DNA from: a virus
Length of the DNA stretch: 64,000 nt
Reading direction: 5' to 3' (one strand)
Virus record (IMG/VR): IMGVR_UViG_3300017735_002163
Location: 1-64,000 of that record
The notes beneath the pieces were generated by a model. The model was given only the letters and a program-made list of their open reading frames with translations, was not told the origin of the DNA and ran no database searches. Shown here piece after piece: positions 13,485 through 60,417 of the stretch; position 1 is the stretch's first letter; each line of letters begins with the position of its first letter. A program made the position numbers and the translations under genes.

Positions 13485-14942
13485 TTATTTGTATTCAACT
13501 TTCGTCATAGTGTGTCTGAATTCTTTTTCTTTGTAAAACACTTTACGTTTAGTTAAATGTCTTTTACTATACTTTAGATTGCTTGATATGTCAATCACAT
13601 TTACGTAATCTTTGTCCTCTGCCTTACGAATACCTCTACCGATACTCTGTATGACACGAACAAAACTTTTTCCTGGTTCCAACATAATCAAATTAAATAT
13701 TCGAGGTATGTTGATACCTACTGCCGCTACACCGTATGTAGCAACAATGACCTTGTTATCCATTTCTGATATTTCATCATACTCGGATTGTCTGTCTTTG
13801 ACTTTCATACCACCACTAACAAATGCCCATTCAGGATTCATCTCTGAAAATATATTTCCTGTGGCAATTCTATCTATGAGAACAAGTGTGTTACCTTGTT
13901 GTGCCATTTGGTTAATTATCTGCGATAGATGTTTTAGTCTTGTTTCGTCTGTGGTAAGCCATTTAAGTTCTTGTGCATATCCATTGAACCCAAGTGGACC
14001 ATCTTGCATCTGCAAAATACTAATGTCCAAGTCAGCCAATACACCCATGTCTTGTAACTCTTTACTGCTTAGGCTACCTGTAACAGGTCCTAATGCACAG
14101 GTACATGCTACTGCTTCGTGTTCGTCTTGCGGTATAGTACCTGTTAGTCCCCAACGTATAGGAACATTTTTAAACATACCACTCAACTGGTCACGCAATA
14201 CATCTGCTTTTGCTTTGTGTACTTCGTCAACCATTACACACACAACTTGATCGAGGAATACATCTAAGTCAACTTCGGCTTCGCCTGCCTTTGTTTTCTT
14301 TTCCAGTACTGCAAGACTTTGCCATGTGCATATAGTATGAGTCTTGTCATATTCTTTTCTGTCGCCATAAAGAACACCAACGTCCATACCTAAATTTTTG
14401 TAATCTTTTTCTGTCTGCACAACAAGATCTTTGTTTGGCACAATTACTATAGTCCTGCCAAAGTCCTCACAACGATGACTGAGCACTGCTGTGATAAGTG
14501 TTTTACCGGCTCCTGTTGCCACTTCCTGTAAACACTGAGGATTATCAAGGAATCGATTAATAACTTCTACTTGATAGTCTCTTAAAATAATAGGTAACCC
14601 TGCGGCAGGATGTCTGGGAGGCCATGCAGTATCTTCATAACTGTTTGCCTCAACAGGGTTAAATTTGAAATCCCATGTTTGCCTTTGATCATCAACCTCT
14701 ACATCATAACCTGCCGCGGTTACAATTGGTAGTAGAGTGTCGAGTAAATTCAAATAGGATCGGCCGCCAATGTCGCAAAATCTAACGCAACCATCCCAGC
14801 GGCCTAATTTGTATGCTGGCATATGGTATGCATAAGGTAAAAAGAATTTTACCGAATCAGAAATCTTACGCCTTGTCTTTACATCGAGTCCAACGAACTT
14901 GATGTTTACTTCGTCTCTAATTTCTAAAACTGTTTTATGCAT
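13485..14942 (-). CDS. uvsW: UvsW-like SF2 helicase
   Basis: UvsW is the T4 RecG-like branch-migration and R-loop-unwinding helicase that controls the switch to recombination-dependent replication. The 485 residues have motif I TGAGKT at 143-148, motif II DEVH at 239-242, an L-T-G-T motif III near 267, and motif VI QSIGRGIRK at 432-440. A TTGACA -35 box lies upstream with a TATATA-like -10 very close to the ATG. It heads an operon of four genes. Confidence 0.9.
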   Translation of the reverse strand: MHKTVLEIRDEVNIKFVGLDVKTRRKISDSVKFFLPYAYHMPAYKLGRWDGCVRFCDIGGRSYLNLLDTLLPIVTAAGYDVEVDDQRQTWDFKFNPVEANSYEDTAWPPRHPAAGLPIILRDYQVEVINRFLDNPQCLQEVATGAGKTLITAVLSHRCEDFGRTIVIVPNKDLVVQTEKDYKNLGMDVGVLYGDRKEYDKTHTICTWQSLAVLEKKTKAGEAEVDLDVFLDQVVCVMVDEVHKAKADVLRDQLSGMFKNVPIRWGLTGTIPQDEHEAVACTCALGPVTGSLSSKELQDMGVLADLDISILQMQDGPLGFNGYAQELKWLTTDETRLKHLSQIINQMAQQGNTLVLIDRIATGNIFSEMNPEWAFVSGGMKVKDRQSEYDEISEMDNKVIVATYGVAAVGINIPRIFNLIMLEPGKSFVRVIQSIGRGIRKAEDKDYVNVIDISSNLKYSKRHLTKRKVFYKEKEFRHTMTKVEYK

Positions 14943-14947
14943 ACTAA

Positions 14948-14976
14948 TATATACCTTAGTTTGATGAGATTGTCAA
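14948..14976 (-). promoter_or_regulatory. sigma70-like promoter of uvsW operon
   Basis: TTGACA (14976-14971) with TATATA (14953-14948) at 17 bp; the -10 is imperfect and only 5 nt from the ATG. Confidence 0.55.
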
Positions 14977-16554
14977 GAAGTATTTTCTACCACCAGCACC
15001 ATAGCCTGGTGTTACTTCAAACTCATTATCAAATACATCGCGAACAGTAAACGATACTGTGGCTTTTGCAAACTGTCTGCTGAACACAAAATCAAGTGTG
15101 CTTAGGTCATCCAGGCTTGCTCCATCGTAAGGTCCAGGTGCTCTGTCAAACATACCACTATAAATAGTTTTGAATTTTACATCACCAAAACTTGCATAGT
15201 AGCTCAACTGAGTTTTTAACTCTGGTACACGTGGTTGATCACTGTCTGTGTATCCAACCATTACATTAAGACTGCCATACGGTACAGCATAAGCATCTAC
15301 AAATCTAATGCCCTGTGTTTTGTATTCGCCTGAGTTAATGTATGTTGCACTGTTATACACACCTGCATCATCCGTGTAGCCTGATTGGTATTGTATACCT
15401 TGTTCAAATTCATACCTGTACAATGTTATAGCACCAAATGTAACTTCAGCACCCATAGACTCTTCTGCTTCTAAGTCTGCATTGCCTTGTACCCATACGT
15501 CACCATTTTGTTGATACAATGTAGGGTTACGATAACTGGTAGCAAAATTTATAGAAAGCAGTTCTTTGCTGTATCCTACTCTGTAAACAAATGCATCTTC
15601 GTTTACTCTTACGCCGACACCAAATTGGTTTTCAAAGTTAATAGATGCATAACCACTGACATCAGTCTGATCGTTATCCATATATGTTTCTTGATCACCG
15701 GTGATACCCACAATAAGTTCTGCGGCTGGTGTGCCAAGTAGATATTTGGTTTTAGCATCTAAGTAAAGTCTTTCTGCTTCGCTGTCATACGTTAAGTCAT
15801 CTCCAGTAAAATAATCTGCATTATTTTTGTTATAACCTAATGTGATGTTATCATTACGAACACTCACAGCAACTTTATTACCAGTCTGAGTACAATCGTT
15901 TGACTGTGAAAAACTTGCAGTATAGCAGTTGTCATAGTCATAATCGTAATCAGTGTAATTTACATTGATGTCAAATCCACCAACTGTTTGATCAAGCCTT
16001 GCTGTTTTGTTTACATAATTATCTGTTTCATCGTTGTCAGTTCTCACTGAGCCGTTTGATACATCAAAATATGTAACACCAAATCCGCTTTGACTTACAT
16101 CAACAAGTGTATGGTCTGACCCAAGCCTGGATACAAAACCGTCTTGTAGGTCGTCTGTGATAAACACTGAACCACCCAAACTGCCTGAACCATATAGCAC
16201 ACTGTTAGGACCACTAACAATTTTTAATGCTTCTTGTCCAGTAACAATGTCGTGACCAAAGTCATACCATCCTGAGCCTGCATCGTTAACAGGTACACCA
16301 TTCCTAAAAATAGTTGTGTGTTCTGTTTGTGCTCCACGCTCATTATAGCCACTAAAGCCACCAAAGCCTCCGGCTGTGTATGCCATTGCAGGCATTACTG
16401 TTTCTACTAACCCAAAGTCTTCGTTAACGTTTGGAGTAGTTTCAACAATTGTTGCACCGACTACAACAATTTCTTCTATCAAGTCATCTGCATACACGTT
16501 AATGTTTAATAAACATGCAACGGCAAGTAATGACGCTATCTTTCTATTCTTCAT
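14956..16554 (-). CDS. TonB-dependent outer-membrane receptor (BtuB/CirA-like)
   Basis: The 532-residue product has a Sec signal peptide (residues 1-22, ending N-V-Y-A), a TonB-box-like segment E-E-I-V-V-V-G-A, and a plug domain with R-G (NERGAQTEHTTIFRNGVPV) and the SGPNSVLYGSGSLGG signature. After about residue 140 comes a beta-barrel of alternating strands with Asp/Tyr/Asn-rich loops. It should insert in the host outer membrane and import a TonB-powered ligand. It is short for the family (600-800 residues), and the last strand ends F-L-T-I-S-S-N, lacking the usual terminal aromatic BAM signal. It lies behind a terminator, downstream of an AAA ATPase gene, with an RBS AAGGAAAAT. Phage copies of such receptors are very unusual. 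Confidence 0.85.
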   Translation of the reverse strand: MKNRKIASLLAVACLLNINVYADDLIEEIVVVGATIVETTPNVNEDFGLVETVMPAMAYTAGGFGGFSGYNERGAQTEHTTIFRNGVPVNDAGSGWYDFGHDIVTGQEALKIVSGPNSVLYGSGSLGGSVFITDDLQDGFVSRLGSDHTLVDVSQSGFGVTYFDVSNGSVRTDNDETDNYVNKTARLDQTVGGFDINVNYTDYDYDYDNCYTASFSQSNDCTQTGNKVAVSVRNDNITLGYNKNNADYFTGDDLTYDSEAERLYLDAKTKYLLGTPAAELIVGITGDQETYMDNDQTDVSGYASINFENQFGVGVRVNEDAFVYRVGYSKELLSINFATSYRNPTLYQQNGDVWVQGNADLEAEESMGAEVTFGAITLYRYEFEQGIQYQSGYTDDAGVYNSATYINSGEYKTQGIRFVDAYAVPYGSLNVMVGYTDSDQPRVPELKTQLSYYASFGDVKFKTIYSGMFDRAPGPYDGASLDDLSTLDFVFSRQFAKATVSFTVRDVFDNEFEVTPGYGAGGRKYFLTISSN

Positions 16555-16583
16555 TATTTTCCTTAATGTTAAAGTTAAAATAA

Positions 16584-16607
16584 CTCTACCCGGAAATCCG
16601 GGTAGAG
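16584..16607 (-). terminator. rho-independent terminator
   Basis: Perfect 10-bp stem (CTCTACCCGG / CCGGGTAGAG) with a 4-nt loop, followed on the minus strand by TTATTTTAAC. It ends transcription from the AAA ATPase gene or attenuates read-through into the receptor gene. Confidence 0.8.
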
Positions 16608-16638
16608 CGTTGTGTTACAAACAAGTTGTGGGAGAATG

Positions 16639-17667
16639 TTATGCAACACGTTTCATACAGGTTGACTCCGCAAGTTCTTGCCAAGTGTCCGGAGACATCT
16701 GTTTAAGGTCTGCTACCTTAAGAACCATCCTGAGTGAAATTTCACGCAACCTGTTAGCCTTCAAAACCATAAAGTCCACTACTTCCTGGTCTCCTTCTTT
16801 ACCGAAGTTATACTCGTCTAACATACCGTCACGTACAATTTGGTTAATACGTAAGAACCTATCGCTAACACTATTCATCTCAAGGTCAATGTAATGACAT
16901 CTGGACATAAGTGCTGATAAGTGATCCTTGATCTTCTTAGAACGAACGTTTTCAAAGTCAACGTTAGTAATAAAGATACAACCACCTTTGAACTCAAATC
17001 TATCAGGAATACCTTCTCTACGAAGAGCCTGCGATTCTGACTTCCAACTAATAGTTCTTTTCTTGCCTGAGTCAAGTACTGCCTTCAACATGTTCAAGCA
17101 TACTTCATCAAACAATACACTGTCGCAGTCATCAAACACAAGGATGTCACCTTTCTGCGAATTGTTGTATAGTGTCTGATACAGACCAATTGGTGTCATT
17201 GAACCCTTGACTACTTCTGTTCTTGGCGGCTTACTGCTAAGTTTAGCCATAACATCGTATTCGTCAAGTATCTTCTCAACACCAAAACTCTTACCAACAC
17301 CTGGAGGGCCACTTACGATAAGACCTCTAACAACACCGTTTGCCACAGCATCAGTCATCTCATCAAGGATATTAAATCTACGTTTGATTCTATCCATGGC
17401 CTGCTCTTCAGTTTCTTTTACTGCTTTTGCAGGTGCAGTTTCAGTAGACTCAACTTCAGTTGCTGGTCCGTCAACGTATTCTATATCGTTTGGATTTTCA
17501 AGCAATACACGTATTGCTTTCTTGTCTGGACCTAACACCTTGCTGGCGTCTACAGTAATAAATAAACCTTTCTTACCGAAAGTGCTTGGTTTTACTAACG
17601 GAAACACTGTATCAGTGATAGGTGCGTTTCTGTAAGTACCTTGTATAATGCGAACTTGCTTTTCCAT
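16639..17667 (-). CDS. AAA+ ATPase
   Basis: The 342-residue product has an N-terminal region of about 90 residues with an Ala/Glu-rich linker, then a AAA+ core: Walker A GPPGVGKS (120-127), Walker B ILVFDDCDS (around 174-182), and sensor-1 like FITNVDF. I recall similar ATPases in cyanophages, annotated only as ATPase. It is not clearly gp44. The ATG at 17667 is preceded by a strong RBS (GGGAGGCA, 7-nt spacing), and a sigma70-like promoter lies upstream. Confidence 0.8.
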   Translation of the reverse strand: MEKQVRIIQGTYRNAPITDTVFPLVKPSTFGKKGLFITVDASKVLGPDKKAIRVLLENPNDIEYVDGPATEVESTETAPAKAVKETEEQAMDRIKRRFNILDEMTDAVANGVVRGLIVSGPPGVGKSFGVEKILDEYDVMAKLSSKPPRTEVVKGSMTPIGLYQTLYNNSQKGDILVFDDCDSVLFDEVCLNMLKAVLDSGKKRTISWKSESQALRREGIPDRFEFKGGCIFITNVDFENVRSKKIKDHLSALMSRCHYIDLEMNSVSDRFLRINQIVRDGMLDEYNFGKEGDQEVVDFMVLKANRLREISLRMVLKVADLKQMSPDTWQELAESTCMKRVA

Positions 17668-17706
17668 AATATTGCCTCCCACAGCAATTAATTAATTTAT
17701 GTACAT

Positions 17707-18379: not shown

Positions 18380-18456
18380 TGGCGCGGCTGGAGAGATTCG
18401 AACTCCCGACCCTGTGGTTCGTAGCCACATACTCTATCCAACTGAGCTACAGCCGC
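18380..18456 (-). tRNA. tRNA-Arg (anticodon ACG)
   Basis: Complete cloverleaf: acceptor GCGGCTG pairs with CAGCCGC, anticodon loop CTACGAA gives ACG, T-arm contains GTTCGAATC, and the 3' CCA is encoded. A sigma70-like promoter lies directly upstream. Confidence 0.93.
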
Positions 18457-18470
18457 CTACCTATGAAATA

Positions 18471-18498
18471 AGTATAGCATCTTTTAGGTATTTGTCAA
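18471..18498 (-). promoter_or_regulatory. sigma70-like promoter for tRNA-Arg and HAD gene
   Basis: TTGACA (18498-18493), 16 bp, TATACT (18476-18471), 15 nt before the tRNA 5' end. Confidence 0.75.
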
Positions 18499-18499
18499 C

Positions 18500-18754
18500 C
18501 TACATTTCTATTGTTTTAAATTTAGTGAATCCGAGGTCCTCATCGAATGTGAGGATGAATTGTGCAAGTTCTGGATCTGATTGGAACGATAGGTGCAGTT
18601 CGTACCCTACTGTTTTAAAAGAAACTTCTATGCCGTAATTTTTAGCCCATTTGTTAACTGCATTAGATATTCTGCCTCTGTGCATTTGAGCTGGCATACC
18701 GCCACCACCTGAGGGTAAGTTAAATCTGATATATCTACGTTTTGTCCTATCCAT
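18500..18754 (-). CDS. small conserved phage protein
   Basis: The 84-residue product starts at MDRTKRRYIRF (ATG at 18754), overlapping the stop of the PP-loop gene by 8 bases. It contains a glycine run (SGGGGMP) and alternating beta strands (SFKTVGYELHLSF). It is unrecognised. Translational coupling to the QueC-like gene suggests a partner role, which is inference. Confidence 0.65.
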   Translation of the reverse strand: MDRTKRRYIRFNLPSGGGGMPAQMHRGRISNAVNKWAKNYGIEVSFKTVGYELHLSFQSDPELAQFILTFDEDLGFTKFKTIEM

Positions 18755-19400
18755 TCCCTGTGTCAACTTTATCCATAGACTCAAATGCCCATGCACGTTC
18801 TTTGCAATGATAACATTTACCACATTTACCAGTCATTGTTTCTGTACAACTATGTGATAGGTTTGATATTTCTTCTACACCTAACTGAAACATAATATCA
18901 ATGGTGTGGCTCTTTTGAGTATGGTTAAAAGGAAAAATCAATGTGCCCGGCATTGGGCCTTCTATCTTTTCGCTTCTGGTGGGAAGTGTAGTATCTAAGT
19001 CTGGATTAGAACGTTGGTCGCCCATGTAAATTTGATCTACATCGTAGTTCTCTAAAGTATGCAATATAGACTCCCAAACTTTTTGTCCATGGAAACGTTG
19101 ATGTAATTGTGTTATCCTAACACGAGTTGTTGACGGTAATTCTATATCAAACTTTTTCTCAACAAACTCTATAAGTGCAGGTGGATATAATTCAGCACCA
19201 TCGGTCTTGGGTATGTTAAACAAATATTTAATAACATCTTTAGGTTGTTTACCCTGTGCAATTATATCCTTACACATACAAGACAACAATACAGAACTGT
19301 CTATACCACCACTTAAAAAGAGACCAATCTTTTTTGTAGTGTCTATGTCTATTGTTACTATTTCTCTATGGTCTTCAGGACCACATTCAAGTTTAAGCAT
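18747..19400 (-). CDS. QueC-like PP-loop ATPase
   Basis: The 217-residue product has the N-type PP-loop SGGIDSS at residues 30-36, and near the C-terminus four cysteines at 185, 193, 196 and 199 (GKCGKCYHCKERAWAF), which match the zinc site of QueC. QueC makes 7-cyano-7-deazaguanine (preQ0), used for tRNA queuosine or for 7-deazaguanine DNA modification. No QueD, QueE, FolE or DpdA is visible in this window, so it may use host preQ0 precursors, or have a different amidation or sulfur-transfer role. It starts 5 nt after a perfect TATAAATA late octamer. Confidence 0.75.
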   Translation of the reverse strand: MLKLECGPEDHREIVTIDIDTTKKIGLFLSGGIDSSVLLSCMCKDIIAQGKQPKDVIKYLFNIPKTDGAELYPPALIEFVEKKFDIELPSTTRVRITQLHQRFHGQKVWESILHTLENYDVDQIYMGDQRSNPDLDTTLPTRSEKIEGPMPGTLIFPFNHTQKSHTIDIMFQLGVEEISNLSHSCTETMTGKCGKCYHCKERAWAFESMDKVDTGNG

Positions 19401-19405
19401 ATCTG

Positions 19406-19413
19406 TATTTATA
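19406..19413 (-). promoter_or_regulatory. T4 late promoter, exact TATAAATA, 5 nt from ATG
   Basis: Perfect T4 late consensus TATAAATA, 5 nt before the ATG of the QueC-like gene at 19400. Confidence 0.7.
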
Positions 19414-19422
19414 ATTTAATAG

Positions 19423-19497
19423 TGGCGGTCCGACGGGGAATCGAACCCCGAACACCGCCGTGACAGGGCGGAATTATAACCGTTTAACTACCGGACC
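19423..19497 (-). tRNA. tRNA-Asp (anticodon GTC)
   Basis: Acceptor GGTCCGG/TCGGACC, anticodon stem CCGCC/GGCGG with loop CTGTCAC (GTC), T-arm GGGGTTCGATTCCCC, and encoded CCA. Confidence 0.93.
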
Positions 19498-19510
19498 GGT
19501 TATGTACAAA

Positions 19511-19587
19511 TGGTGGGTGATGACAGGTTCGAACTGCCGACCCTCTCGGTGTAAACGAGATGCTCTACCAAACTGAGCTAATCACCC
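19511..19587 (-). tRNA. tRNA-Val (anticodon TAC)
   Basis: Acceptor GGGTGAT/ATCACCC, anticodon loop TTTACAC (TAC), T-loop GTTCGAAC, and encoded CCA. Confidence 0.93.
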
Positions 19588-19712
19588 ACATTGCTTTCTA
19601 CTCTGGCTCTATTTAGTTTATGTAGGTCCAAGAGCTGTTGACCTGCCATTTGTTTTTGTTGTTTAAAGTCTGTACAAAACGAGCGTCAATACGCAAAAAT
19701 CAGACTATAGTA

Positions 19713-19787
19713 TGGTACTCCGTAGGAGGATCGAACTCCTATTGCTGAGATGAAAACCCAGTGTCCTAACCATTAGACGAACGGAGC
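19713..19787 (-). tRNA. tRNA-Glu (anticodon TTC)
   Basis: Acceptor GCTCCGT/ACGGAGT with one G-U pair, anticodon loop TTTTCAT (TTC), T-arm GGAGTTCGATCCTCC, and encoded CCA. Confidence 0.92.
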
Positions 19788-37241: not shown

Positions 37242-37269
37242 AGTATAACACATCATTATGCTTTGTCAA
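37242..37269 (-). promoter_or_regulatory. sigma70-like promoter
   Basis: TTGACA (37269-37264), 16 bp, TATACT (37247-37242), upstream of the ATG at 37210. Confidence 0.7.
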
Positions 37270-39139
37270 TGATGTTACTTAAATAACCTCTTCTGCGTCT
37301 AAACAAAAGATTGTCCACATGTTCTTTCATGTTTTCCGGGAACATATTTGTTCTGTCACTTACTATATAAGTCGACGGGGTCATGTCAAGTTCAATTTTT
37401 TGGTCTTGTACGTAATCCCAGAGGTTAGTAAAGGTATTTATAGATTCTGAGTTAAAACGTGTGTTTTTGAATTGTTTTATACGTTTTATAGTTATATTTC
37501 TATAATCTGCAAGGATTTGCTCGGGGGTGTCAGGATATTGTTGTTGTGTGTAATCGCTAACACATTGTATAGCATATTCTAATAAGTCTTCGTTTTGCAA
37601 TGTAGACATCAAACTGATAATAATTTGCCAACTGTCAAATTTGTAGTCTTTGCTTTTGAGTGAAAAGTATCCGGTTCTGTGCCATTTGTGTATGCCGTCT
37701 CTGATTCTATCTTCCAGTTGGATAAACACAGGGTTGCGTTTGAACTCTAAAAACAATCCTTCATAAAATTCTTTGTAAGTGGTATTACCCTGTTTAACCA
37801 ATGCTCTCGATATTATATCGGATATACCTTGTGTGTGCAAACCTGTTATGTACCATGCTGTGATAAATGCTTCTATGATATCTGATTCAGACATAGTGCT
37901 GGTACTTTTTATAATAGGCACGTCTTCGTCAGGCACCTTTGAGTTGAAGTCATTGGTTTCGTAAAACATGTCATGTGCAATAAATGTTTCCAATTGATAC
38001 TTTTCAATATCCTGTTGCATTGGTGCATTTTCTAACATGTTTAACAGGAACACGTCGAGCCCACTGTGTAGTCCTGCATCAAGCACATCATAATAAACAT
38101 TCTTAATGGTGTCAAGTGTTTCGGTTGGTAATCCAACAATTATTTCTGTGAGAATAGAGATTTGATTTTTTATTCCTAAGTCTGTGATGTCTCGTATATC
38201 ATTAATACCCATGTTGGTACGTTTAATTGCTTCTAATACGTTTGGGGTAGTTGTTTGTAAACTTAAAGTAAATCCACTTCCTACTCCTGCTTCTTGAAAC
38301 TTTCTAATGATGCCAAACACATCTGCATTACTGTTTTTAGCATAACTCACACTGAGACCTGTTGGAACTGAATACAGTTTTTTAGACTCTACTATTTTAT
38401 CTGCTATGAGATTATCTCTTTCTCTGAACACACCGTAGTTTGCATTTGTGAGATTAATGAAAGGTAGACCGTTTTTGGCAAACCATTCTATTTCAGCAAA
38501 CACTCGATCTAATTTAAATTTAATAATTTTACTGTTAGTTGCACTACCCCAATCACAAAATGTACATCTATAAGGACAACCTCTGTCTGTCTCTAAAGTA
38601 GGCACCCATTCTATATCTGGGTAATCTGTGAGGAAGTGATCGAACACACCATCCAGATAAGGACTGGGTGTTTCTAATTTTTTAAGACGTTCAACAGTGT
38701 GTGTTCGTGGTAGTTCTTTACCGTCTAAAATCATTAATAGCAATTCTTGTACACATACTTCACCCTCACCAATACAAATGGTGTCTATGTAAGGGTGTTC
38801 TATAAAGTAACTTGGACTTGTATGTGCAACTTCGGGGCCACCAATTAAACTTATAACAGCAGGATTAATTTCTTTGACACGTTTTGCTAATTCATAAGTG
38901 TAGTTTTTATTCCACACATATAAACTGTACAACACTACATCACACTTGGCTAACTGCTGTGCTGTTTCTTCAACTGGGTCTCGTCTAAATGCCCAAACGT
39001 CTGCTGAAAAATGTTCTCTTATTTCTTCATTTTGTCTTGCATAGGCCCATAGCACACCAGAAGTGTAGGGCAAGTAGAAAGAATTTAGTATCTTGGGACC
39101 AGTTTGAAAATTTATTTGTGCTAACCCAAGAGAGAACAC
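37256..39139 (-). CDS. B12-binding-domain radical SAM enzyme
   Basis: The 627-residue product has an N-terminal B12-binding-like Rossmann domain (LIGGPEVAHTSP near 98-109, I-G-E-G-E near 123-127) and a radical SAM core with C188-x3-C192-x2-C195 (GCPYRCTFCDW) ligating the iron-sulfur cluster. Such enzymes methylate or rearrange sugars, lipids and natural products. GTG start in a TAGTG overlap with the epimerase. It is the last gene of the five-gene metabolic cassette. Confidence 0.85.
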   Translation of the reverse strand: MFSLGLAQINFQTGPKILNSFYLPYTSGVLWAYARQNEEIREHFSADVWAFRRDPVEETAQQLAKCDVVLYSLYVWNKNYTYELAKRVKEINPAVISLIGGPEVAHTSPSYFIEHPYIDTICIGEGEVCVQELLLMILDGKELPRTHTVERLKKLETPSPYLDGVFDHFLTDYPDIEWVPTLETDRGCPYRCTFCDWGSATNSKIIKFKLDRVFAEIEWFAKNGLPFINLTNANYGVFRERDNLIADKIVESKKLYSVPTGLSVSYAKNSNADVFGIIRKFQEAGVGSGFTLSLQTTTPNVLEAIKRTNMGINDIRDITDLGIKNQISILTEIIVGLPTETLDTIKNVYYDVLDAGLHSGLDVFLLNMLENAPMQQDIEKYQLETFIAHDMFYETNDFNSKVPDEDVPIIKSTSTMSESDIIEAFITAWYITGLHTQGISDIISRALVKQGNTTYKEFYEGLFLEFKRNPVFIQLEDRIRDGIHKWHRTGYFSLKSKDYKFDSWQIIISLMSTLQNEDLLEYAIQCVSDYTQQQYPDTPEQILADYRNITIKRIKQFKNTRFNSESINTFTNLWDYVQDQKIELDMTPSTYIVSDRTNMFPENMKEHVDNLLFRRRRGYLSNIIDKA

Positions 39140-40095
39140 TACTTTTGCCTGTTATGTCTTGTATCGTCCTTGAATGGCAAGTTATTTTCTACAATGTTTT
39201 TCCAATCAGCAATAGTCTGATCGAGGCCATCACTAAGGGCAACTTTGGGTTTCCACCCTGTCATCTTGGTTAACTTATCATTTGAACTGTTTAACAGATA
39301 TATTTCGCCTGGACGATCTGGCTTTGTGTGCCAAAACACTTCGCCTGTCCAACCAATCTTATCTGCAATTGTTTGTACATAATCTCTGATGCGTACTGCA
39401 TTGTTAGGACCAAGACAGAAGATTTCGTTAATGCATTTTTCTGGGTTTGCAATTACTGTTTCCCATGCATCAAGTAAATCATCAATGTAAATAAAGTTTC
39501 TGTAAGGTTCGCCGTATCCTAAATTAATCTCATTTGGATTTTTCAACATTTGATAAATGATTTGCTCTGTTACAAAGAAGTTATTGTCCTTTCTACCATA
39601 TGCATTTGTTTGCCTAATTATAGTATAAGGCATTTCATAACAACGTCCTGCATACTCGAGATATTTTTCACATCCGTATTTTGCAACGGCATATGGTGCA
39701 TTTGGATTTGGTTGTGTTTGTTCATCATACGCAGGAATTGTTCCATCGAAGCCCTGCTTGATAACATCACTGATAGGTTGCCAACCGTATACTTCCATTG
39801 TACTTGCAAACACAAAGTTTTTAAAATCTGGTAAGTCTCTGCAACTCTCAATTAAGTTTACTGTGCCAACATAGTTAATTTCACTAAAAGTAGTTTGTTC
39901 GTAAAAACTTTGCTCTACTTCTGTTCTTGCGGCAAGATGGACAACTATTTCAGGATTTGCTTCCTTTACTTGTCTCTTAACCTCATCGTGATCTCTGAGA
40001 TCTGCACGAAGAAAAGTTAGTTCATGATTTGGTGATAGTCTTTCGACCATGTGTTGTCCAATGAAGCCATCGGAGCCTGTAATAAAGATTCTCAT
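39139..40095 (-). CDS. NAD-dependent sugar-nucleotide epimerase/dehydratase (extended SDR)
   Basis: The 318-residue product shows the Rossmann motif G-S-D-G-F-I-G (7-13), the catalytic S-T-x-E-V-Y-G (about 98-104), and Y135-x3-K139 (YAVAK). It is typical of GDP- or UDP-sugar epimerases and dehydratases, which build sugars for surface polysaccharide or glycosylation. ATGA overlap with the oxygenase gene. The substrate is unknown. Confidence 0.88.
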   Translation of the reverse strand: MRIFITGSDGFIGQHMVERLSPNHELTFLRADLRDHDEVKRQVKEANPEIVVHLAARTEVEQSFYEQTTFSEINYVGTVNLIESCRDLPDFKNFVFASTMEVYGWQPISDVIKQGFDGTIPAYDEQTQPNPNAPYAVAKYGCEKYLEYAGRCYEMPYTIIRQTNAYGRKDNNFFVTEQIIYQMLKNPNEINLGYGEPYRNFIYIDDLLDAWETVIANPEKCINEIFCLGPNNAVRIRDYVQTIADKIGWTGEVFWHTKPDRPGEIYLLNSSNDKLTKMTGWKPKVALSDGLDQTIADWKNIVENNLPFKDDTRHNRQK

Positions 40096-52008: not shown

Positions 52009-53196
52009 TTAACCTTGTGTTTGTCTTATGTATATATTTATACCTGAACAATCATTTACACATATAACGTTAGTTCTATTCTCTATGTCTGTTTCAAGTC
52101 TTGCATTACTGCCAACTGGCACTTTAACACTGATAGTACCATTAACTTCTCTGTAGAACCATATAAATCCAGAACGATCTATTATGGTATTAAATTGTGT
52201 TTTTGGATCAAACCCTGATGCTAATGTACCTGTTATTATATCAACGCCTTGTTGTCCTTCTGTTTTTTCTGACAACACTGCAAGTTTATCTGCTTCGTCT
52301 AATATTTCTAATAAATCCTGTAAAAAATCAACACCTAATATGTCAACATCTAATTCACTGAATTCTAAGTCTATGCTATCTTCATTTTGATCGTCGAGCA
52401 AATTTTCTTCTAAGAAATCTATATCGAGATCACTGAATGCTAAGTAGTCAATGCCCTTTCTTGCTTCTATTTGTTGTTCTTCTGCTTCTGTGATTTCTGC
52501 TGGTTCACTTACAATAAACATGTTGTCTATCATATTTAAATTTAAATCTTGTATAACCACTGGCTGAGTTGGCGGTGTTTCAAACGTGCTTACCATTACT
52601 GCTTGATAGGCTTCTTCTAATACAACTGTTCCGCCATCATTAGTAACTGTGATAGCACCGGACGGTCTACACCCTTCTTCTAATTTTACCTTGTCTGTGC
52701 AATTTGCATCTGGCAATAGTATAACTAAACTCCTGCCTAATTCATCTACTGTGGTTGTAAAATCTGTTCCACGCACACCAATTGTTGCTGTGGGAGTTTG
52801 TATGGCTATGTTTTCTTTTGGTACAAGTCCTAATCCGCCTGTGGCAAATCTTGCTGTGCCTGACACAAAATTCATTGCCATTTTACTTTTGCTTGGATCG
52901 GGGTCGTAGACATACTCATTGATTACTATCAACGTATTTTCTGTCAGACTGACCTGTGTTTTATCTACGAATTCAATTTTAAGTCTACCTGCTGTAGTTT
53001 CTACATTGTCCATACTAACAATTGTAGAATCTAAAACTGCAGACAGTTTTTCACCAGATGTTCGTTCTATACTACCCGGATTTCCAGTCTGCTCAAATAC
53101 GCCGCCTATCCTTTCAGCGGCGCTTGAGTTAGACAAAAACGAAAACAGTACAACAAAACTAATCTTTCTGAGTAATGCTAACTGTTGCGTTTTCAC
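52009..53196 (-). CDS. FecR-domain secreted protein
   Basis: The 395-residue product has a signal peptide (VVLFSFLSNSSAAE) and a FecR domain (about 35-170): a G-x-L-K-I-E-F-V-D-K-T-Q-V-S-L segment and the signature A-T-I-G-V-R-G-T-D-F near 137-146. In other bacteria such FecR proteins often sit beside CHASE2 cyclases and curlin-like adhesins. The rest is acidic, with D-L-D-I-D-F-L repeats. GTG start overlapping the second curlin gene by 38 bases. Probably a periplasmic or surface partner of the fibre system, not a sigma regulator. Confidence 0.75.
   Translation of the reverse strand: MKTQQLALLRKISFVVLFSFLSNSSAAERIGGVFEQTGNPGSIERTSGEKLSAVLDSTIVSMDNVETTAGRLKIEFVDKTQVSLTENTLIVINEYVYDPDPSKSKMAMNFVSGTARFATGGLGLVPKENIAIQTPTATIGVRGTDFTTTVDELGRSLVILLPDANCTDKVKLEEGCRPSGAITVTNDGGTVVLEEAYQAVMVSTFETPPTQPVVIQDLNLNMIDNMFIVSEPAEITEAEEQQIEARKGIDYLAFSDLDIDFLEENLLDDQNEDSIDLEFSELDVDILGVDFLQDLLEILDEADKLAVLSEKTEGQQGVDIITGTLASGFDPKTQFNTIIDRSGFIWFYREVNGTISVKVPVGSNARLETDIENRTNVICVNDCSGINIYIRQTQG
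52035..52042 (-). promoter_or_regulatory. late promoter of curlin gene 1
   Basis: TATAAATA within the last codons of the FecR gene, 27 nt from the ATG at 52007. Confidence 0.55.
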
Positions 53197-56133: not shown

Positions 56134-59100
56134 TTATTGTAAGTTGATTAATGCTTCAACAACACCGTTACCATCTTCGTTTTCGCTAATTGCTTTACCG
56201 ATGATTGTACCTGACTTAACGTTTTCTGGGTCAGCGCCTTTGGCTCTACCTGGAATACCTGATGTTACAAGTAAGTCACCTTTGCCAATTGGACCAACAA
56301 CTTTAACTGGTACCCTTCCGCATAATGCTACTGGAGTTCCACCTGCTAATTCACTGTTCATCAAGTATGCTGGGTCTGTGGAAACAACACCTGCTACACG
56401 GTAATCTTCATCACCTGCACATTCTGTTATTTCTGCATCGCCACCAAACACAACAACTGTACCTGCATCATACACTGCATCTGCTGAATAGTTCTCAGCC
56501 AAATCCGCATATCTTGCCGTTGTTGCTGTTGCACTAACTACGCCAGCACTAAAGTTACCGGAACCGTCTCTGGCAACCACTGTACTTGCTGTATTGGCTG
56601 ATGTTGCGTTAACATTTAATGTAGCACTACCACTTGATGCGCCACCTGTTAAGTATGAACCTGCCACAACTGCTGTAATATCACCTACGTTGCCTGTTAG
56701 TCCACTTATGCGTCCTGTTACGTGATCGTATACGTCATTACCTGTTGGTATTGATGTGCCGCCGTTTGCAACTGCACCAGTAGAAACACTTAATGTAACA
56801 CTACCACTTGAACCGCCGCCACTTAAATGTGTACCTGCTGTAACACCAGTGATGTCACCAACGTTACTTGTCCAACCGGAGTCATTGTTAAACTGACTTA
56901 GTTTAAATTCACCAATTGCTTTCTTTCTCTCAGCGCCTGAATCAAGTAAAATAAGTTCGTCATTAGCACCGCTAACATCTGCTGTCATATCAGTAAGTTC
57001 TGATAAGTCTAAAGTGATGCTTGGTGTACCTGAAGTACCTCCGCCGTCTAAACCTGTACCTACTGTAATACCTGTTAAGTAACCAGTGTCTGTTAAACTA
57101 ATAACACCTGTTGAGCTGTTATATGTAACACCAGTTCCACCACTAACTAATCCTCTAACATGTGAATCGCTTAGTGCTAAACTAACACTACCACTTGATC
57201 CACCGCCAGTTAAACCGTTACCAGCACTTACGTTTGTTATATCACCAACTGTTGTTGAGTAACCGTATGCTTCAATCTTATCAGCAACTGCTTTTGCTGT
57301 CATTAACACTGTGTCTGAATCACTAAATGCTTCTGAACTTAATTGTATTGCCGCTCCAGCAAAGTCACCAACTGTTAAATCTGGTAGTCTTGCACTTGCA
57401 ATAGTACCTGATGCTATTTGACTTGCACCAATTGATATTGAAACTTCGCCACTTGCAGTTAAACGTCCTTTTGCATCAACTGTAAATGTTGATACTGTGC
57501 CAGCGTCACCAAATGATCCAACTGATGCGGCTGTATCTGCTAATGCTAAACTAACACTACCACTTGAACCACCACCTGTTAAACCTGAGCCTGCACTTAC
57601 GTTTGTTATATCACCAACTGTTGTTGAGTAACCATAACTTAGAATTTTATCTTGTACTGCCGCCGATGTCATTAATGTTGTATCGTTATCTGCAAAACTT
57701 TCTGTGCTTAACTGAATTGTTGCTCCTGCAAATTCACTAATTGTTAAACCACTTACGTTTAATGTTGCTGTACCACTTGTAGCACCGCCACTTAAACCAG
57801 TTCCTGCTACTACACCAGTAATAAAGTTTGGATCTGTTAGACTGATTACACCACTTGATAAAGTAATACCAGCACCACCACTAAAGTGATTTCTAACTTG
57901 TGCCGCACTTGGACCTGTGTAACTAATAACACCTGTTGTGCTGTTGTATGCTAATGCACCATCACCACCGTTATCTGTTACAGAGATAGCACCTCTGGCG
58001 TCTGCGTCTGCATACATTGTAGGCTCACTATAACTTATAACACCTGTTGTGCTGTTATATGCTAAGTCACCACTTGCACTAATTGCCGCTCTTGCTCTTG
58101 CAGTTGTATGGTATTGATTAGTACCTTCTGATAAATTACTTGTGCTGTGATTAGCAATACTGCTAACTGTACCAGTTACATCACCAGTTACATCACCAGT
58201 TACATCACCAGTTACATTACCAACTACTGCGCCTCTAAATGTTGTAGCAACAAAATCTGTTGATACTGCCCATCTGTCGTTTGACTCGTCCCATAGTAAC
58301 TGTACATTTGTAGCATCACCACGTTCAATTTCAATACCTGCATTGGCTGTAGGGGAACCTGATGCATTGTTGTTTAGAACGATGATGTTGTCATCAACTG
58401 TTAAAGTTTCTGTATTAACAGTAGTTTGTGTACCGTTAATTGTTAAGTTACCATTAACTATAATGTTGTCACTAAATGTTTTAGCACCTGCTACTGTTTG
58501 AGTACCACTTGTTCTAACTACAGTATTATCTACTGAGAATGAACCGGAACTAACATCTAAGCCGTCACCTGCTGATACATGTGCTCTAACTTGCGCCGCA
58601 CTTGGACCTGTGTAAGTAATTACACCAGTTGAGCTGTTATAAGCAAGACTTCCGTCTCCGCCTGCGTCAGTAACACTAATTGCACTTCTGGCATCTGCAT
58701 CTGCATACATAGTTGGGGTTGTATAAGACATAACACCTGTTGTGCTGTTATATGCTAAGTTGCCACCTGCACTAATTGAAGCTCTTGCTAATGCATCAGT
58801 ATACTGAGTGATAGTTGTTGCAATAGCACCGTCTGTTACAGTAATACCTGTACCAGCACTAATATGAGCTCTTACTTCTGAAGCACTTGGGCCTGTGTAA
58901 GTAATAACACCTGATGTGCTGTTGTATGCCAATGATCCGTCACCACCTGCATCTGTTACACTAATTAATCCTTTTGCATAGCTCTCATCAAGTGATATTT
59001 CGTCTGCATCAACAGTAATACCGTTGCCTTCACCAATGTTTAATGTAACTGCACCTGCTGTGCCGCCACCTGTTAAACCTGATCCTGCGCCTACGCTTTC

Positions 59101-60417
59101 AATGTCACCTGCGTCATTAGTAAAACTAAATACACCAGTTGAGCTATCGTATGCTAAATCGCCACTTGCACTAAAGTGTGCTCTTGTCTCTGCCGCACTT
59201 GGTCCTGTGTAAGTAATTACACCAGTTGAACTATTGTATGCCGCACTACCATCACCACCTGCATCTGTTACACTAATAAGTGCTCTTGCAGTTGAATCTG
59301 TAAGCATGTTTTGATAAGTTGTACCATCGTTTGTAAATGCCCATGAACCTTCTGACTCGTCCCATTTTAGGAATACGTCTGCACTTGAGGCTCTGTCTAC
59401 TTGGAAACCTGTGTCTAATGCACTACCAGTTCCAGCATTTAATAAAATAATTTCATCTGCAATTTCTAATGCACTACCTGAACTTGTTAGTGTACCAGTA
59501 ATTTCCATATTACCTGAGAATGTTTTGTTACCTGCTAACGTTTGGTTACCAGTTGTTCTCATTACAGTACTGTCAACAGCAATTGTACCAGTACTAATAT
59601 CAATACCTGATCCACCGTTAAAGTGAGCTCTTACCTCTGCGGCACTTGGACCTGTGTAAGTAATTACACCATTGTCTAATGCTAATGAGCCATCGCCGCC
59701 TGCATCAGTAACACTTAAGAAAGTTAATGCATCTACATAACCTTTGCTTGCCGCATCACCATCTGCTACTGGAGTAGAGATATTGTTAATATGGTTGCTG
59801 TCTAAATTAACATTTGAACCAAACTTAACACCACCTGCTGAAGTAATTGATTTGTTTGCTGTTAAAACAACATCTGTTTTCAGTTGGATGTCACCACCTG
59901 ATGTTAATTCAATATCACCTGTTCCTGTTGAAACAATGCTAATATTTTGGTTGGCGTCTGCACTAAACTGAATAGTACCTGAGTTATCAGATAATACTTG
60001 TTGTCCGTTAACGTATAAAGATCCCGGACCAACGTATATGTCTCGCCATTGTTTTGTTTCAGAACCTAAGTCGTATGTAACGTCTGCATTAGGTATAATG
60101 TGTCCTGAGAACGCACCTCCACCTAAGAAACTTTGTACACCGCTTGTAAAAGTTGCTGAAGAAGTATCAAGTGCAATAGTGGCCGATCCTGCGTCTGCTC
60201 CACCACTTAAACCTGAGCCTGCTACAACGGCAGTAATATCACCTGTTGCCGCCGCTACTACTTCTGAATTTTTTGCAAGTCTGTGACCACCTGCTGTTGT
60301 ACCATCATGTACTATGACGGTATTGTTAGTTGTATCGATCGTAATCTCACCCGCTAATCCGGTAAAACTACCGTGTTGCGTCGAGGTACCTCGTCTTCTT
60401 TGAATTGCTGTTGCCAT
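56134..60417 (-). CDS. giant repetitive tail fibre
   Basis: The 1427-residue product starts M-A-T-A-I-Q-R-R-R-G-T-S, with G-E-I-T-I-D-T-T-N-N-T and V-H-D-G-T-T-A-G-G-H, the Mtd/fibre N-terminal domain that attaches to the baseplate. The body has at least ten copies of a module with S-V-T-D-A-G-G-D-G-S-L-A-Y-N-S-T-T-G-V-I-T. The C-terminal 120 residues (A-R-Y-A-D-L-A-E-N-Y...) are closely related to those of the fibre gene at 62933. The protein likely binds the receptor and varies by repeat recombination. Late octamer upstream, terminator downstream. Confidence 0.88.
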   Translation of the reverse strand: MATAIQRRRGTSTQHGSFTGLAGEITIDTTNNTVIVHDGTTAGGHRLAKNSEVVAAATGDITAVVAGSGLSGGADAGSATIALDTSSATFTSGVQSFLGGGAFSGHIIPNADVTYDLGSETKQWRDIYVGPGSLYVNGQQVLSDNSGTIQFSADANQNISIVSTGTGDIELTSGGDIQLKTDVVLTANKSITSAGGVKFGSNVNLDSNHINNISTPVADGDAASKGYVDALTFLSVTDAGGDGSLALDNGVITYTGPSAAEVRAHFNGGSGIDISTGTIAVDSTVMRTTGNQTLAGNKTFSGNMEITGTLTSSGSALEIADEIILLNAGTGSALDTGFQVDRASSADVFLKWDESEGSWAFTNDGTTYQNMLTDSTARALISVTDAGGDGSAAYNSSTGVITYTGPSAAETRAHFSASGDLAYDSSTGVFSFTNDAGDIESVGAGSGLTGGGTAGAVTLNIGEGNGITVDADEISLDESYAKGLISVTDAGGDGSLAYNSTSGVITYTGPSASEVRAHISAGTGITVTDGAIATTITQYTDALARASISAGGNLAYNSTTGVMSYTTPTMYADADARSAISVTDAGGDGSLAYNSSTGVITYTGPSAAQVRAHVSAGDGLDVSSGSFSVDNTVVRTSGTQTVAGAKTFSDNIIVNGNLTINGTQTTVNTETLTVDDNIIVLNNNASGSPTANAGIEIERGDATNVQLLWDESNDRWAVSTDFVATTFRGAVVGNVTGDVTGDVTGDVTGTVSSIANHSTSNLSEGTNQYHTTARARAAISASGDLAYNSTTGVISYSEPTMYADADARGAISVTDNGGDGALAYNSTTGVISYTGPSAAQVRNHFSGGAGITLSSGVISLTDPNFITGVVAGTGLSGGATSGTATLNVSGLTISEFAGATIQLSTESFADNDTTLMTSAAVQDKILSYGYSTTVGDITNVSAGSGLTGGGSSGSVSLALADTAASVGSFGDAGTVSTFTVDAKGRLTASGEVSISIGASQIASGTIASARLPDLTVGDFAGAAIQLSSEAFSDSDTVLMTAKAVADKIEAYGYSTTVGDITNVSAGNGLTGGGSSGSVSLALSDSHVRGLVSGGTGVTYNSSTGVISLTDTGYLTGITVGTGLDGGGTSGTPSITLDLSELTDMTADVSGANDELILLDSGAERKKAIGEFKLSQFNNDSGWTSNVGDITGVTAGTHLSGGGSSGSVTLSVSTGAVANGGTSIPTGNDVYDHVTGRISGLTGNVGDITAVVAGSYLTGGASSGSATLNVNATSANTASTVVARDGSGNFSAGVVSATATTARYADLAENYSADAVYDAGTVVVFGGDAEITECAGDEDYRVAGVVSTDPAYLMNSELAGGTPVALCGRVPVKVVGPIGKGDLLVTSGIPGRAKGADPENVKSGTIIGKAISENEDGNGVVEALINLQ
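58171..58220. repeat. 12-bp tandem repeat in the fibre gene
   Basis: The unit ACCAGTTACATC is repeated about four times and encodes a V-T-G-D repeat. It is coding, in frame and of slippage type. Confidence 0.7.

Follow-up and report, generated by a model that had tools for sequence, protein, structure and literature searches.

A BtuB-like TonB-dependent receptor gene maintained in a lineage of uncultivated T4-like phages

TonB-dependent receptors (TBDRs) encoded by phages are mentioned, in the literature found, as single cases only. A SusC-like TBDR of the marine megaphage Mar_Mega_1 was proposed as an auxiliary metabolic gene (PMC9723777), and a TBDR-annotated gene of pelagiphage Skadi-1, which has tail tube and capsid genes for neighbours, was taken by the authors of that study to point to the adsorption receptor (PMC10504331). 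The T5 protein Llp and the T1 protein Cor are small phage lipoproteins that act on host TBDR function (PMC9586334). In the bacterial receptor BtuB, cobalamin is bound with the help of calcium in an aspartate cage, and loops 2 to 5 are important for binding (PMC7360065). No description of a phage BtuB was found in the literature searched, which lay mostly outside subscription papers. The gene considered here encodes a BtuB-like TBDR of 532 aa and lies at positions 14956 to 16554 of a 64,000-nucleotide stretch (hereafter the window) of the 83,376-base IMG/VR virus record IMGVR_UViG_3300017735_002163. That record also contains the T4-like genes for TerL, UvsX, gp32 and tail sheath. All features of the window given below are on the minus strand.

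Fold and ancestry of the phage receptor

A first-pass annotation, made from the sequence alone, had proposed a TBDR of the BtuB/CirA type in a phage genome, and the presence of such a receptor was confirmed. The product matched the Pfam Plug family (PF07715) at 1.2e-8, over the curated cut-off. Plug was likewise matched in all 25 of the TBDR relatives scanned, and each of 17 phage records held one Plug protein and no more. Searched as a single sequence, the window protein gave neither a Pfam barrel match (PF00593) nor a PDB sequence match, and only 1 of 25 relatives matched PF00593; this gap is filled by the predicted structure and by the similarity to BtuB in profile searches, both described below. 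An AlphaFold2 model built from 52 phage relatives contained a plug and 22 barrel strands, with a pLDDT of 87.7 and a pTM of 0.86; it supersedes an earlier run on 25 sequences, in which the plug was poor (pLDDT 70.9).

The N-terminus resembles a signal peptide, as judged by eye from the sequence (residues 1–23, MKNRKIASLLAVACLLNINVYAD; positions 16486–16554), and is followed by the TonB box (residues 26–33, IEEIVVVG; 16456–16479). The motif had been noted as a TonB-box-like EEIVVVGA and is real, being conserved among the phage relatives: E27, E28 and V31 are invariant in 25 of them, and E27 also in 52. The plug domain, delimited by the Pfam match (residues 54–128) and by invariant residues, extends over approximately residues 36–138 (16141–16449) and includes the phage-typical GWYDFGHDI. 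In the predicted secondary structure, residues 139–531 (14962–16140) form the 22-strand beta-barrel.

The protein had rightly been described as short, the phage family ranging from 494 to 676 aa, but the barrel is complete in the predicted structure. A doubt had also been raised over its last residue, Asn, in place of the aromatic residue expected for barrel insertion. The residue was named correctly, but the concern was not borne out: a non-aromatic terminus is common in the family, for Trp terminates only 24 of the 81 full-length TBDR open reading frames and the last residue of the remainder is P, K, R, E, N or L. Purifying selection acts on the allele of the window (dN/dS, or omega, of 0.10 in comparison with locus L002), so that the terminal Asn does not indicate decay, and loss of function on this account was rejected.

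Some members of the family differ in length or at the N-terminus. Long signal-like N-termini of shared types (M.KFDKNFH.NFSPLY... or ME.FLYDNIVKI...) were observed in L005, L009, L014, L017, L029, L034 and others, and are apparently swapped among otherwise similar phage TBDRs. Variants of 655 to 676 aa with long insertions, one of them bearing an extra Cys pair, occur in L034, L037, L043 and L044. The shortest member (494 aa; L030:7586-9070) is found in another phage context, adjoining a pyrimidine-dimer-glycosylase-like gene.

The proposed BtuB/CirA type could be narrowed to BtuB on the basis of structure, sequence profile, riboswitch linkage and phylogeny. The eleven best PDB matches returned by Foldseek were all B12 receptors (E. 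coli BtuB and one Bacteroides BtuB), the leading ones being 2gsk, the BtuB–TonB complex (TMq 0.79), and 3m8d, with calcium and cyanocobalamin (E value 5.7e-21); PirA, CirA, PfeA and heme receptors ranked below BtuB. A library of viral folds yielded one significant match only, to a SusC-like marine phage protein. When a profile of the phage proteins was compared with PDB sequences, BtuB was matched at 4.7e-13, followed by PhuR at 0.03 and CirA at 0.06. Against the E. coli receptors the same profile scored 51 bits for BtuB, 17 for CirA, 10 for FepA and 0 for FhuA.

Cellular relatives were sought in 783 bacterial genomes (398 of Pseudomonadota and 385 of one class). TIGR01779 (TonB-B12) was the best NCBIfam model in 10 of 10 of the closest relatives scanned. 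It is apparent that cobalamin riboswitches adjoin the best cellular relatives, in 17 of 20 and 20 of 20 cases for the two genome sets. This frequency (37/40) is to be compared with 3/16 for control TBDRs of the same genomes (Fisher p 1.4e-7), which were picked non-randomly, from the strongest Plug matches, in 15 genomes with 294 Plug hits. The phage profile also scores well for two of the three riboswitch-linked controls. Phylogenetic analysis of 85 proteins placed the phage TBDRs in one clade (support 100), which grouped with E. coli BtuB and the BtuBs linked to riboswitches (branch 97), apart from FhuA, FepA, CirA and 13 control TBDRs; the tree was made by a quick method, has long branches and does not settle the exact cellular sister of the phage clade. 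Taken together, these data identify the TBDR as specifically BtuB-like and of BtuB ancestry.

Genomic setting and exchange of alleles

The neighbouring genes had been correctly recognized as those for UvsW and an AAA ATPase. The UvsW-like helicase gene (13485–14942; phrog_16, DNA helicase, 4.7e-69) begins 13 nt downstream of the TBDR gene, the AAA ATPase gene (16639–17682; phrog_1250, 1.6e-85) is its upstream neighbour, and all three are on the same strand. A G+C-rich stem–loop with a T-rich tail, terminator-like in appearance, is situated between the AAA and TBDR genes (16583–16608) and ends approximately 29 nt ahead of the TBDR start codon; a similar hairpin occupied this place in 37 of the 57 distinct upstream sequences compared.

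Searches of IMG/VR recovered 47 loci with the single TBDR protein and 227 with its profile, the relatives being for the most part fragments from metagenomes. The gene order gp32–UvsX–AAA–TBDR–UvsW was observed in nearly all of the sufficiently long loci examined, and when loci were counted from UvsW, the TBDR gene was directly upstream in 68 of the 77 that were informative. Assembly chimerism, which the first-pass annotation had listed as a concern, was ruled out by synteny, as identical junctions occur in dozens of independent viral contigs and metagenomes. The base composition of the TBDR gene is similar to that of its neighbours. As a putative auxiliary metabolic gene it resides in a bona fide phage genome, with UvsW, AAA, UvsX, gp32 and TerL around it in many contigs. 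More distant phages, with UvsW proteins approximately 55% identical, also have a TBDR at the same site, so its presence looks ancestral. The TBDR is a near-core gene, and by all appearances an ancient one, in an uncultivated, mostly aquatic lineage of T4-like phages. No tblastn match to the window protein was obtained among the sequenced phages of the INPHARED set, and a pattern scan of genome contigs for TBDR relatives gave none. A scan with NrdA for a potential host returned only one Holosporaceae metagenome-assembled genome, at 52%.

In comparison with L002, the window TBDR gene has a dS of 0.85, whereas dS for 12 other compared genes ranges from 0.10 to 0.38, and the drop in nucleotide identity coincides with the borders of the TBDR gene. 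The TBDRs of L014 and L016 are 95% alike and their UvsW proteins 79%; for L016 and L037 it is UvsW that is 93% alike and the TBDR 51%. From the elevated dS, the drop at the gene borders and these discordant similarities it follows that phages have traded TBDR alleles among themselves; selection on the protein is nonetheless purifying.

Other features were observed at these loci. One diverged group of phages has a further gene, of approximately 350–370 aa and without a family match, between AAA and TBDR (L064:8850-9971, with equivalents in L056, L080 and L100). Elsewhere in the window, four tRNA genes (Arg, Asp, Val, Glu) are clustered around a QueC-like gene (18380–19787), and a 1427-aa tail protein with Mtd_N and BppL_N domains (56134–60417) is a candidate receptor-binding protein. 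FecR proteins are partners of TBDRs in bacteria; a 395-aa protein with a FecR domain (52009–53196; PF04773, 6.2e-12) may be a structural protein here.

Ligand site and proposed role

The ligand site was compared by alignment with that of BtuB, at the residues of the calcium cage and the cobalamin site. BtuB D193, D195, Y229, D230, R497 and Y579 align with phage E176, D178, Y207, D208, R442 and Y518, all invariant in 25 phages; most of the residues compared are kept, with D193 replaced by an invariant Glu and no counterpart of D179 and D241. E176 and D178 belong to an acidic motif in extracellular loop 2 (residues 171–178, RTDNDETD; 16021–16044) and are also conserved in the riboswitch-linked BtuBs. 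Y207 and D208 belong to a loop 3 motif (residues 205–221, YDYDNCYTASFSQSNDC; 15892–15942) with two conserved Cys residues, a pair common to the phage TBDRs and the cellular relative L139. The extracellular loops are more conserved than the barrel strands, with 22% as against 9% of positions invariant (Mann–Whitney p 0.004). Such conservation fits a retained binding site and not a diversifying decoy.

Judged from sequence and predicted structure, the phage-encoded BtuB probably imports a corrinoid into the infected cell by way of the host TonB system. The receptor would be exported after infection and inserted in the host outer membrane. No TonB was found in the phage records searched, and the energy must therefore come from the host, whose TonB–ExbBD would power the phage receptor. 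Uptake of cobalamin or a related corrinoid would thereby be raised or maintained, and the imported cofactor would serve B12-dependent enzymes of the host cell, most plausibly in the recycling of methionine and S-adenosylmethionine (SAM) through MetH. While fold, TonB box, BtuB ancestry, ligand-site positions, synteny and purifying selection are results of computation, we infer cobalamin as the ligand, its actual transport and the enzyme that benefits.

Altered uptake of a cofactor, for instance cobalamin for a radical SAM enzyme, had been among the roles first proposed and is the one favoured here. The enzyme in question, a KedN5-like B12-binding radical SAM methyltransferase (37256–39139; NF033712, 8.8e-65; PF02310 and PF04055 over cut-off), is a possible cobalamin user in the window phage, where it too may be served by the imported cofactor. 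It cannot be the general reason for a near-universal TBDR: of 36 related records, a good number of which are fragments, just 3 contain a B12-binding radical SAM gene over cut-off; with one close viral relative only, it was rejected as a general partner. The gene adjoins one for a nucleotide-sugar epimerase/dehydratase, and the pair (together 37256–40095) is possibly a sugar-modifying cassette, which is rare in viral contigs.

A second gene context was found in six loci (L013, L020, L029, L106, L107 and L109), whose surrounding genes resemble a large-gene block of a 250-kb relative. Here the TBDR gene starts 1–2 nt after a 183-aa gene that matches PNP_UDP_1 over the Pfam cut-off and models of methylthioadenosine/S-adenosylhomocysteine (MTA/SAH) nucleosidases under their equivalog cut-offs. 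Homocysteine is formed when SAH is recycled, and many bacteria then use the B12-dependent MetH; the MTA/SAH-nucleosidase-like neighbour hints in this way at the methionine/SAM cycle, its connection with B12 being suggestive only. A conserved gene of 91–92 aa, of unassigned function, follows the TBDR gene in several of the six loci.

The near-constant presence of a BtuB version in these phages suggests that they adjust the vitamin uptake of the infected cell. More tentatively, T4-like aquatic phages may keep a near-core cobalamin gate, in some cases with a nucleosidase-like operon partner, so that B12 would be imported to drive the methionine/SAM recycling on which phage methylation draws. The gene would then be an outer-membrane auxiliary gene for vitamin uptake, kept since the ancestor of the group, with its alleles traded between phages.

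Several observations, in addition to the scarcity of the radical SAM gene, weigh against corrinoid import by a BtuB-like receptor. The TIGR01779 score of the window protein was 56.6 bits, the cut-off being 599.7; the ten cellular relatives scanned were likewise under it, although the majority adjoin riboswitches. Neither the window nor three phage loci yielded a cobalamin riboswitch; a phage gene need not retain such control. Among the five cage aspartates, D195 and D230 are kept and D193 is Glu, but D179 and D241 are absent. A ribonucleotide reductase gene occurs in five related records, and the only one classified (L116) is of class Ia (NrdA/NrdB), which is B12-independent; these phages thus have no obvious B12 need for deoxynucleotide synthesis, and a B12-dependent reductase was rejected as the beneficiary. 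Nine of the 77 UvsW loci are empty sites, with AAA and UvsW approximately 100 nt apart and no TBDR. In the eight inspected, a promoter-like stretch containing TTGACA (a motif recognized by eye) lies between the terminator hairpin of AAA and UvsW; given the TBDRs of distant phages at this site, these look like losses. Vitamin uptake may be of little benefit when lytic infection is fast, and the ligand could have changed since the gene was captured.

An alternative that we regard as unlikely is a functional TBDR of BtuB descent with another ligand, such as heme, a siderophore, a nucleoside or another micronutrient. The weaker matches to heme and siderophore receptor models, the two absent aspartates, the long branch leading to the phage clade and plug-apex residues that differ from those of BtuB (an invariant W96 in place of S93) are consistent with it. 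Against this, sequence, structure, phylogeny and riboswitch linkage all single out BtuB as the closest receptor, and residues of its calcium and ligand region are among those best conserved in the loops.

It is similarly improbable that the receptor serves to remodel the surface or control superinfection, the phage version replacing or supplementing host BtuB and being unusable by, or titrating, rival phages and bacteriocins, with an arms race driving the allele swaps. BtuB-type proteins are receptors for phages and colicins (1ujw is among the structural matches), the allele exchange between otherwise similar phages seen above (in the comparison with L002 and among L014, L016 and L037) would suit such a role, and phage T5 is known to exclude superinfecting phages in a TBDR-directed manner (PMC9586334). 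The T5 system, however, uses a small lipoprotein and no receptor of its own. The decoy function against phages and colicins, one of the original suggestions, is weakened further by loops that are more conserved, rather than more variable, than the strands, and by an invariant TonB box, plug and ligand site, none of which a passive decoy would need. An assembly chimera, a decaying host gene or a functionless passenger, as might be suspected from a TBDR amid replication genes, the lack of a cultured relative in the tblastn search and the nine loci without it, is very unlikely in view of the repeated junctions, the low omega, the intact key motifs and the neighbour-like base composition.

In many marine communities cobalamin is a limiting or shaping factor, and the traffic of B12 from microbe to microbe is being actively studied. 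Import of corrinoid by a phage receptor would be of consequence here; if true, a phage lineage with its own B12-type receptor puts viruses directly into that traffic.

Comparison with known systems

Among the described receptors, E. coli BtuB (TIGR01779; PDB 2gsk, 1nqh and 3m8d) is nearest to the phage TBDR both in fold and in sequence family. The two share the 22-strand barrel with plug, the TonB box, the acidic motifs in loops 2 and 3, and the equivalents of R497 and Y579. They differ in that identity in the structural alignment is approximately 18%, the window protein falls short of the E. coli precursor by 82 residues, and the phage TBDR is without two of the five cage aspartates and has two loop 3 cysteines. 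The window protein is, moreover, phage-encoded and far under the TIGR01779 cut-off, with no cobalamin riboswitch in the phage loci scanned. The cellular BtuB L139, from Pseudomonadota genome G411, is the best cellular match to the phage profile (3.4e-21) and has YDFGH, an acidic loop 2 and the YDNC..NDC of loop 3 in common with the phage TBDRs. A cobalamin riboswitch is situated just upstream of it. It is, however, cellular, and in the quick tree it does not emerge as the direct sister of the phage clade.

Of the phage proteins, the SusC-like TBDR of Mar_Mega_1 and the BFVD entry A0A8D9FQQ5 are, like the window gene, TBDRs encoded by marine phages, but they are of the SusC type and not of the BtuB lineage, and A0A8D9FQQ5 is a weak structural match (TMq 0.48). 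The Skadi-1 gene is likewise annotated as a TBDR and differs in its setting; no tblastn match to the window TBDR was obtained in the phage collection. T5 Llp and T1 Cor affect TBDR function as well but are not themselves receptors. Set beside these single cases, the family described here is monophyletic, syntenic and near-core, with a testable ligand, natural empty sites and visible swapping of alleles.
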